Positions 5,376 to 36,430 of a stretch of DNA of 46,861 nt are shown piece after piece (the first letter of the stretch is position 1; the number at the start of each line of letters is the position of its first letter). The stretch comes from Halorubrum lipolyticum DSM 21995 (lineage in GTDB: Archaea; Halobacteriota; Halobacteria; Halobacteriales; Haloferacaceae), in the NCBI RefSeq assembly GCF_000337375.1, contig NZ_AOJG01000013.1, positions 22,724-69,584 on the forward strand, in the 5' to 3' direction. The position numbers and the translations under genes were made by a program. The notes below the pieces were generated by a model that saw only the letters and a program-made list of their open reading frames with translations, was not told where the DNA came from and searched no databases.

Positions 5376-5419
5376 GTTTATAAACCGTCGATCTAAGCGT
5401 GGCGATTGTTTATAAACAA
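5376..5419 (+). promoter_or_regulatory. Twin palindromic TATA-like boxes after aroD
   Basis: GTTTATAAAC occurs at 5376-5385, two bases after the aroD stop. A longer perfect palindrome, TTGTTTATAAACAA, lies at 5406-5419. Both fit the haloarchaeal TATA consensus and read the same on both strands. With a usual 25-27 nt spacing, the second would start transcription near 5438, at the beginning of the structured element. No protein gene starts within reach on either strand, so a non-coding transcript is the natural inference. Confidence 0.5.
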
Positions 5420-5431
5420 ATGCGGTGCGGT

Positions 5432-5551
5432 GGTGGCGCGTGCCCGTGAGCGGCCGTCAGGCCGCGAACCGGCGCGCGAGGGAGTCGGTTGCCCGGAGCA
5501 ACGCGGAGGGCAACCGACGAGGCTGGGGAGGTGTTCACCGCTGTGACAGCG
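5432..5551 (+). ncRNA. Candidate structured RNA or 3'-end element, copy 1
   Basis: This intergenic stretch shares two blocks with another intergenic site at 36295-36401 (-). The first is GGTGGCGCGTGCC, three bases, GAGCGGCC (5432-5455). The second is GCTGGGGAGG, eight bases, GCTGTG (5522-5545). Between them lie hairpins: GCGGCC/GGCCGC (5450-5465) and an 11-bp perfect stem GTCGGTTGCCC/GGGCAACCGAC (5484-5494 with 5508-5518). A small CGCTG/CAGCG stem (5539-5551) closes it. No open frame explains it. It could be a small RNA, a processed 3'-UTR module of aroD, a terminator, or a dispersed repeat; the sequence alone does not decide. Confidence 0.55.
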
Positions 5552-5649
5552 AAGATCACTTATAAAGAATCACCGAGACCGCCAACCGTCTCCCCGTACG
5601 CCACCTAAAGAGCCAAACCGCTTTACGAACGCCCCCGTAAGTGGTCCTA

Positions 5650-6636
5650 ATGGCGACGTGCGACGTGTGTGGGGAGTACGAGAACCTCCCGTATCAGTGT
5701 AACCGGTGCGGCAGGACGTTCTGTGCCGACCACCGCCTGCCCGAGAACCACAACTGTCCGGGCCTCGCCGAGTGGGACGATCCGGGCGGCGTCTTCGACA
5801 GCGGGTTCGACGGGAGCGTCGAGGCCGGCGGGGCCGGGAGCGCGGGCGGGTCGGGCTCCGGCTCGTTCGCCGGCGTCACGGGCCGCGTCAAGCGACGGAT
5901 CGACCGGGAGACGAACACCGGCGGGCTCGTGAGCTACTTCCGCGGGAACGCGACGTACACGATCCTGTTGGCGATATGGGTCACGTTCCTCGCGCAGTTG
6001 GTCGTGTTCTGGGGCGTGAGCCCCGCGCTCCACGACCAGCTGTTCGTCCTCCGGGCGGACGCCCTCGGGAACGTCTGGACCTGGGTGACCGCCGTGCTCT
6101 CCCACTCGCCGGTCGGCCTCTACCACATCATCGGCAACAGCGTCGTCCTGTTCTTCTTCGGGCCGCTCGTCGAGCGCGCCGTGGGGTCGAAGCGCTTCAC
6201 GGCGTTCTTCTTCCTGTCGGGGATAATCGCGGGGCTCGGCCACATCCTGTTCGCGATCGGGATGGGCGCCACGTCGACCGGCGTGCTGGGCGCCAGCGGC
6301 GCCGGCTTCGCGATCCTCGGCGTCCTCACCGTCTGGCGGCCGAACATGCAGGTGCTCCTCTTCTTCGTCGTCCCGATGAAGATCAAGTACCTCACGTGGG
6401 GGATCGCGCTCGTCTCGGCGGTCCTCGTCGTCCAGAGCGTTCAGGCCGGCGGGGCCGGCAGCGCCGGCAACATCGCGCACCTCGCGCACCTGATCGGCTT
6501 CGCCATCGGGCTCGCGTTCGGTAAGCGCAACGAGGGGCTCGCGCGCTCTGCGGGCGGCATGGGCGGCATCTCGATGGGCGGCGCGCGCGGTCCCCGTGGA
6601 CCGGGCGGGCCAGGCGGCCCGGGCGGACGCTTTTAA
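5650..6636 (+). CDS. Rhomboid intramembrane serine protease with N-terminal AN1 zinc finger
   Basis: A 328-aa membrane protein. Residues 1-40 are an AN1 zinc finger (CDVCGEYE, YQCNRCGRTFCADHRLPENH, NC). A Gly/Ser linker follows, then six or so membrane helices from about residue 95. The rhomboid signature is complete: HIIGNSVVLFFFGPLVE, catalytic Ser216 in LGASGAG, and catalytic His280 in AHLIGFAIG. The tail is Gly/Arg/Pro-rich. Such proteases cut substrates within the membrane; the zinc finger on the cytoplasmic side may choose substrates or partners. The ATG at 5650 is chosen over a GTG at 5641 by the finger boundary. Its stop abuts the start of endonuclease V, so the two are co-transcribed. 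Confidence 0.92.
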   Translation: MATCDVCGEYENLPYQCNRCGRTFCADHRLPENHNCPGLAEWDDPGGVFDSGFDGSVEAGGAGSAGGSGSGSFAGVTGRVKRRIDRETNTGGLVSYFRGNATYTILLAIWVTFLAQLVVFWGVSPALHDQLFVLRADALGNVWTWVTAVLSHSPVGLYHIIGNSVVLFFFGPLVERAVGSKRFTAFFFLSGIIAGLGHILFAIGMGATSTGVLGASGAGFAILGVLTVWRPNMQVLLFFVVPMKIKYLTWGIALVSAVLVVQSVQAGGAGSAGNIAHLAHLIGFAIGLAFGKRNEGLARSAGGMGGISMGGARGPRGPGGPGGPGGRF

Positions 6637-30047: not shown

Positions 30048-30132
30048 CGCCGAGGCGGAGATTTGAACTCCGGTGTCCGAATGGACAGTAGATTTCGAAT
30101 CTACCGCCTTGGCCAGGCTAGGCTACCTCGGC
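30048..30132 (-). tRNA. tRNA-Ser (anticodon CGA)
   Basis: Read on the minus strand, the acceptor stem GCCGAGG pairs with CCTCGGC and is followed by a G discriminator. The anticodon arm is GTAGA-TTCGAAA-TCTAC with anticodon CGA (Ser, UCG codons). A long variable arm (GTCC/GGAC) marks a class II tRNA, and the T arm is CGGAG-TTCAAAT-CTCCG. CCA is not encoded. No intron is seen. The 85-nt length is normal for Ser. Confidence 0.95.
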
Positions 30133-36154: not shown

Positions 36155-36294
36155 GGTTCGTTAGACGAGGAATTGTCGTTCGCACGGTTATAAATCGCCG
36201 ACGGCGATCGTCAGCGAGTTTTTCAGAATAAGTAGCTGATCGCTTATAAACGGCTTCCAACGATGGATCGGCGGCGAACATCTACAAAGCCCCG

Positions 36295-36401
36295 CACAGC
36301 ACCTCACGCCTCCCCAGCGTCATCGCCGGACGTAGTCCGACGACCTGGCGCGAGCTCTCTCCCTACTCGCGCCCGGTGGCCGCTCGGAGGCACGCGCCAC
36401 C
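36295..36401 (-). ncRNA. Candidate structured RNA or 3'-end element, copy 2
   Basis: On the minus strand it carries GGTGGCGCGTGCC, three bases, GAGCGGCC (36401 down to 36378). Further on come GCTGGGGAGG, eight bases, GCTGTG (36318 down to 36295). These are the same two blocks with the same internal spacings as at 5432-5545. Between them are a perfect stem GGCGCGAG/CTCGCGCC (36366-36373 with 36347-36354) and a 9-bp stem with one G-T pair around a TAC loop (36335-36343 with 36323-36331). A TATA-like ctttaaataa (36406-36415) precedes it, 16 bases after the aldo/keto reductase stop. Non-coding by appearance. Confidence 0.55.
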
Positions 36402-36430
36402 GCAGTTATTTAAAGAGACTCGTCGCTCGC

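Follow-up and report, generated by a model that had tools for sequence, protein, structure and literature searches.

The window, by which we mean the whole 46,861-nt stretch of the Halorubrum lipolyticum DSM 21995 genome analysed here, contains two copies of an intergenic repeat (Table 1). Copy 1 is situated between aroD, which encodes a type I dehydroquinase, and a zf-AN1/rhomboid gene (5641-6636), whose product combines an AN1-type zinc finger with a rhomboid protease domain; copy 2 is placed after a gene for an aldo/keto reductase. An earlier note had described a two-copy element of 107-114 nt, and the shared blocks are where it placed them: GGTGGCGCGTGCC-N3-GAGCGGCC at 5432 (+) and 36401 (-), and GCTGGGGAGG at 5522 (+) and 36318 (-), with an intervening stem whose sequence differs between the copies yet pairs in both. 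Neither the number nor the span held up. By BLAST, copy 1 matched the host genome at 49 places, the 3' block of module A (defined below), GGYTGGGGAGGYGTGNGG, occurs there 93 times exactly, and the full element is more than twice as long, both window copies being internally deleted. The equal spacing N8-GCTGTG, judged by comparison with full copies, is probably fortuitous, as the positions are not homologous between the two copies.

Table 1. Anatomy of the two copies and of their immediate flanks (positions in the window)
Feature	Positions	Strand	Basis
Copy 1, 5' block GCGGTGGTGGCGCGTGCC, left end of module A (P1a 5' strand)	5427..5444	+	sequence
Copy 1, N3 helix strand, GAG-hairpin 1-CGA, P1 3' strand, GAGGGA	5445..5483	+	fold and covariation
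Copy 1, hairpin 2 GTCGGTTGCCC...GGGCAACCGAC, 11 bp outer stem, variable cassette	5484..5518	+	fold and alignment
Copy 1, fused block GAGGCTGGGG/AGGTGTTCACCGC, internal deletion, module B lost	5519..5541	+	comparison with full copies
TTTATAA box ahead of copy 1, most likely context of the insertion site	5409..5415	.
ACTTATAAAG box downstream of copy 1, remnant of right-hand flanking unit	5558..5567	.
Copy 2, 5' block GCGGTGGCGCGTGCC-TCC-GAGCGGCC	36378..36403	-
Copy 2, aberrant hairpin GGGCGCGAG...CTCGCGCC, in place of the 3' half of hairpin 1 and P1	36347..36374	-	fold
Copy 2, hairpin 2 GTCGTCGGAC-TAC-GTCCGGCGATGAC, 10 bp with G.U	36319..36344	-	fold
Copy 2, GCTGGGGAGGCGTGAGGTGCTGTGC/GGGGCTTTGTAGATGTTCGCCGCC, module B deleted between GGGG tracts, 3' end kept	36270..36318	-
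CTTTAAATAA box just upstream of copy 2	36406..36415	.	equivalent AT box at the empty site of other species
CGTTTATAAGCGATC, right-hand flanking unit of copy 2	36238..36252	.

The full Halorubrum element is ~250 bp long and consists of module A followed by module B. Module A comprises an N3 helix, hairpin 1, GAGGGA, hairpin 2 and GAGGCTGGGGAGG, and module B is a long hairpin bounded by CTCAAAGGGG...GGGGCTTTGGAG. Written out, the core is GCGGTGGCGCG(T/C)GCC-N3-GAG-hairpin 1-CGA-N3'-GCACGCGC-GAGGGA-hairpin 2-CGAGGCTGGGGAGG, followed by YGTGAGG-linker-GGGTGGGACTCAAAGGGG-hairpin 3-GGGGCTTTGGAGGTGTTCACCGC. In the Halorubrum genome G015 the core, with its GC-rich hairpins, is mostly ~240-257 bp long, which is too short for a transposase gene. 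The only complementarity at its ends is GCGGTG/CACCGC, and the diverged intergenic DNA in the genome pairs compared (G020/G015 and G000/G015) kept the ends unfixed. In copy 1 the 3' block of module A is joined to the 3' end of the full element, GCTGGGG being directly fused to AGGTGTTCACCGC, and in copy 2 GTGC is joined to GGGGCTTTG. Thus, as judged from their alignment with full copies, both window copies are degenerate internal-deletion derivatives of the ~250-bp repeat that have lost the long 3' hairpin. The simplest account of this loss would be a deletion between the GGGG tracts flanking the long palindrome, and a similar loss is present at the aroD site of another species (L103). Copy 1 still folds into a closed multi-branch structure (MFE -71.1, z -4.73, 0/200 dinucleotide shuffles as good); the fold of copy 2 is partly broken and does not clearly surpass its shuffles (z -1.41, 18/200), because its hairpin 1 is rearranged.

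Exact matches to GGYTGGGGAGGYGTGNGG number 10-176 per genome in 35 Halorubrum genomes, with 0-1 for the reversed-pattern control, and the repeat appears to be the dominant intergenic repeat of this genus. The suspicion in the earlier note that similar blocks recur in Halorubrum is borne out by the exact 5' pattern, found in 32 of 59 related genomes, all of them from this genus and none from the other 22 genera sampled. At several host-genome loci (L151, L158, L161, L061, L013 and others) single N's flanked by duplications of 40-100 bp lie inside elements. These are assembly joins broken by the hairpins, which mimic tandem copies; tandem 90-nt duplicates, considered as a feature of the repeat, were accordingly dismissed as an artefact, the inspected ones holding an N at a scaffold join.

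Alignment of the copies reveals extensive covariation. Among 82 distinct copies of module A, 93.3% of the cells are paired, compared with 77.5% (maximum 79.1%) in shuffled alignments, and changes on both sides of a pair occur in 274 cells against 95 (maximum 120) in the shuffles. The N3 of the earlier note is itself a helix strand that covaries with a trinucleotide 3' of hairpin 1 (TCC/GGA, TGC/GCA, GGT/ACC, GAC/GTC, ACC/GGT and TTC/GAA are all seen). Hairpin 2 is variable: 113 copies carry 87 distinct sequences. For module B we aligned 40 sequences from Halorubrum, Halonotius, Halobaculum, Haloarcula, Halorussus, Halobacterium and other genera; here 95.3% of the cells are paired against 79.1% after shuffling (0/500), a percentage biased in favour of the structure, which was read from the same alignment. 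Weightier evidence is provided by the shuffle and slide controls, the latter lowering pairing to 29-44% when partners are shifted, and by changes between genera, such as CTCAAAG/CTTTGG, CTCGAAG/CTTCGG and CTGAAAG/CTTTCG; double changes were found at 19 of the 23 pairs. The compensated stems between fixed blocks that the note had claimed for two copies are supported.

The tip of module B contains four tandem G.A/A.G steps between paired dinucleotides (33-40 of the 40 sequences per column pair), a ladder that is near-invariant across genera, and a GGG/GGG internal loop is present in 36-40 of the 40. By analogy to known RNA and DNA motifs, the G.A steps are probably sheared pairs. The non-Watson-Crick pairs in distinct helices are more often G.U than A.C (83 vs 38, p=5e-5; 50 vs 28 when counted by distinct context, p=0.017), and the sense strand folds better than the antisense relative to shuffles in 31 of 43 comparisons (p=0.009). 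Hence the sense strand is under constraint in its single-stranded form, in agreement with the selection on structure proposed before. This constraint fits RNA and top-strand DNA alike, and the asymmetry does not separate them.

A covariance model of module B (R1) matched 216 of 292 Halobacteria genomes, representing 60 of 77 genera, at E<=1e-4, with up to 12 places scored per genome and a rough calibration. In 50 kb of E. coli and in the window it matched nothing, and its matches in transposon loci were only weak and partial. The module-A block is present in 91 of the 292 genomes (23 of the 77 genera); since some genomes have one module without the other, the two are separable. A 25-base string from module B, searched in genomes of 84,980 prokaryote species, matched in Halobacteria only, the named records being Halorubrum, Halonotius and Halobacteriales MAGs. 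Among 50,697 phage records no link to the repeat was found; four contigs of the IMG/VR viral catalogue (L406-L409) contain the exact module-A block, possibly in host flanks. The family had been presented as undescribed, and it is absent from Rfam: searches at the gathering threshold and at E<=1 yielded no family for the element, only leuA-Halobacteria and a tRNA in the window, and chance matches elsewhere. The former (RF03001, 25687-25739) is an ordinary known leader, and the latter an 85 nt gene at 30048-30132 (-). Searches of the literature by words and by sequence strings found no description of this repeat.

We studied the genomic context of 69 delimited copies in 2.16 Mb of G015, with genes assigned by a simple codon-usage script. 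Copies are scattered in intergenic DNA, and their orientation to the neighbouring genes is random, with 18, 17, 17 and 17 copies in the four classes. Many intergenic copies with covarying stems, named in the earlier note as support, were found; a consistent gene context was not. A role at the 3' end of the upstream gene, as a regulatory or terminator module, is suggested by both window copies, each of which follows a gene on the same strand (aroD and the aldo/keto reductase gene). We regard this as very unlikely: a 3'-UTR or terminator reading was rejected on the random orientation of the 69 copies, and 26 of 30 species have no element at the aldo/keto site.

Many copies are preceded, at a distance of 12-25 bp, by an AT-rich stretch resembling a TATA box; a TTTATAA-like sequence is upstream of 34 of 43 host copies and 19 of the 69 G015 copies, compared with 13 of 1015 random intergenic windows. 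This box is best read as insertion context rather than as a promoter of the element, because at the site of copy 2, the one locus on which this rests, element-free species already have a TTTTAAA-like stretch (e.g. L129; L130 has a relic). A promoter of its own driving a small RNA was consequently rejected as a general feature, the box being present in so few of the G015 copies and predating the insertion at this site. The same observations, together with the random orientation and the hairpin motif that caps IS605/tnpB transposons (see below), speak against the reading of the earlier note as a small RNA or 3'-end module.

Sites are gained and lost at the level of species, each represented by one genome. 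Of 30 species, 17 carry an element at the aroD site and 4 at the aldo/keto site, which gives the clearest empty sites. Between the host and G015 the testable sites comprise 24 without a recognisable element and 6 with one, these entries being partly redundant and some of the 'empty' sites holding remnants. Copies in G020 are mostly at the same sites as in G015, with coding flanks ~94% identical, and at some of these common sites the two genomes have the same fixed blocks with entirely unlike hairpins 1 and 2. Such differences at orthologous sites would reflect replacement of hairpins as cassettes, most simply by gene conversion.

The host genome also contains a separate layer of repeats (e.g. 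L151-L180), in which inverted pairs of a GATAGCGGGAGTGGGTAT module surround about a dozen cores. These modules could be taken as the ends of a two-TIR MITE mobilised by a DDE transposase: GATAGCGGGAGTGGGTAT has 40 matches in the host genome against 0 in the control, and the inverted pairs lie 290-540 bp apart around cores. As many copies have no GATAGCGGGAGTGGGTAT modules, G015 has the core alone, and further repeats continue outside the modules, we give this explanation hardly any credence. The sequence conserved outside the modules is CGGTCAGTACGGACACAGCGGTGAGC or CGGTCGCTGAAGACNGCTTCTTGATC; at L102, at L120 and in G015 copies, the sequence that follows the core, GGCTGGGGCTTTGGAGGTGTTCACCGCCGATC...TTTATAAGCGAGC, forms 2-5 head-to-tail units with a period of ~50-75 bp.

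A link to known transposons is provided by the GA ladder. In 30 tnpB loci (L357-L386) we found 14 tandem-GA ladders where 2.4 are expected, of which 11 share the tnpB sense strand and lie either near the expected left end, about 1.4-1.6 kb ahead of the stop, or no more than 35 bases from the stop; one example, GAGCGAACGGCGTCAGCCGTGAGCGA, matches the module-B ladder GAGCGAACG..GTGAGCGA. The ends of IS200/IS605 (IS1341-type) elements thus resemble the repeat in that the ladder GAGCGAAC..GTGAGCGA occurs on the same strand at both the left and right ends of Halorubrum tnpB elements, and tandem-GA ladders are possibly a general recognition feature of haloarchaeal IS605 ends. In contrast to these elements, the repeat has neither tnpA nor tnpB inside, the remainder of modules A and B is not common to both, and its 3' end is GGGGCTTTGGAG rather than GGTGGGGTAGTTCAC. 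No similarity to IS605/tnpB ends longer than the ladder was found, and matches to GGGGCTTT near tnpB ends are antisense and do not extend to the element. The ladder is short and could be convergent. An origin as a TnpB 3'-end or omega RNA was rejected, as the motifs of the element are absent from tnpB ends and Rfam gave no match. The repeat does resemble the haloarchaeal omega/sotRNAs (RF02656, RF02657; PMC12558985) in being a structured haloarchaeal sequence with an end hairpin and an IS605-type link, but 11 element loci matched no Rfam family, those two included, and it has no adjacent tnpB.

REP/BIME and pneumococcal BOX elements are high-copy intergenic repeats built of modular hairpins with compensatory changes, and the repeat shares all of these features; it differs from them in sequence, domain of life and architecture, and no RAYT-type partner was identified. 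Closer at hand are the PATEs of Haloquadratum walsbyi, which are short, transposase-free and present in nearly two hundred copies per genome; like the haloarchaeal IS605-type elements from which they derive, they are described as having near-terminal palindromes, no TIR, and deletions mediated by repeats, and PATEs also leave no target duplication and show insertions specific to strains (PMC3119063). Our repeat is likewise short, transposase-free, haloarchaeal, palindromic and high-copy, with internal deletions. Compared with PATEs, by description only, it is found across most of Halobacteria, is built of two modules whose covarying structure is defined, and shows the tandem-GA ladder and exchange of hairpin cassettes.

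Could the repeat instead be a structured RNA? A putative functional non-coding RNA class, either a multi-copy sRNA or a component of an RNP, would act in trans after read-through transcription or transcription from nearby promoters, with the tandem-GA ladder bound by an RNA-binding protein. The strong cross-genus covariation, the sense-strand excess of G.U and better sense folding, and the intact structure at the site common to 17 of 30 species are all as expected of such a class, whereas the lack of a consistent promoter, orientation or gene context, the very high and variable copy number, the turnover of sites, the same hairpin at transposon ends and the absence of an Rfam family are not; on balance we find it possible yet doubtful. 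Improbable, in our view, is a DNA element of architecture or genome maintenance of the BIME/REP kind, in which extruded hairpins would bind chromosomal proteins or set boundaries of supercoiling or recombination, mobility being ancient. Random orientation, intergenic placement, high copy number and deep retention at one site agree with it, but strand asymmetry is unexpected of a symmetric double-stranded cruciform function, and the distribution between genera is patchy.

With a probability of roughly 0.55, we therefore favour the interpretation of the repeat as a class-wide PATE/REP-like variant, a candidate palindrome-rich mobile DNA of Halobacteria. It is suggested by copy number, class-wide spread, covariation, sense-strand asymmetry and random orientation, and also by the ladders at IS605/tnpB ends, the box at empty sites, the turnover of sites and the replacement of hairpins. 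According to this PATE/REP-like model, the element would be recognised, as a single-stranded sense strand, by the enzyme that mobilises it. This enzyme would probably be a transposase of the IS200/IS605 (HUH) type that acts, or once acted, in trans. Hairpin cassettes would be swapped by ectopic gene conversion between the ~100 copies, and slippage between GGGG tracts would delete module B, independently in each window copy. Against the model stands the failure to detect a Y1/HUH transposase in seven genomes that carry the repeat (0 Y1_Tnp in G000, G015, G018, G027, G002, G004 and G017, despite 14-118 copies), as does the lack of correlation between copy number and the transposase (Spearman -0.21, p=0.27). 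No exact ends and no target duplication emerged from the copies compared, and the possible convergence of the ladder weighs in the same direction. The intact structure of old orthologous copies, such as those at the aroD site, suggests host selection or ongoing conversion. Rather more speculative, though in our opinion still worth entertaining, is a class-wide structured RNA or ssDNA system under selection, characterised by the tandem sheared G.A ladder and the G-rich internal loop, with up to ~176 copies per genome and hairpins exchanged as cassettes, which perhaps represents domesticated IS605-type end hairpins.

The repeat reaches most haloarchaeal genera and yet is absent from Rfam and from the literature searched; the covariance model that now exists can be used for its annotation. 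Its hairpins break haloarchaeal assemblies, leaving scaffold gaps inside elements. Its tandem-GA ladder provides a well-defined structural motif for study at very high salt, and the repeat itself can serve to examine the spread and upkeep of palindromic elements where the usual HUH transposase is missing.
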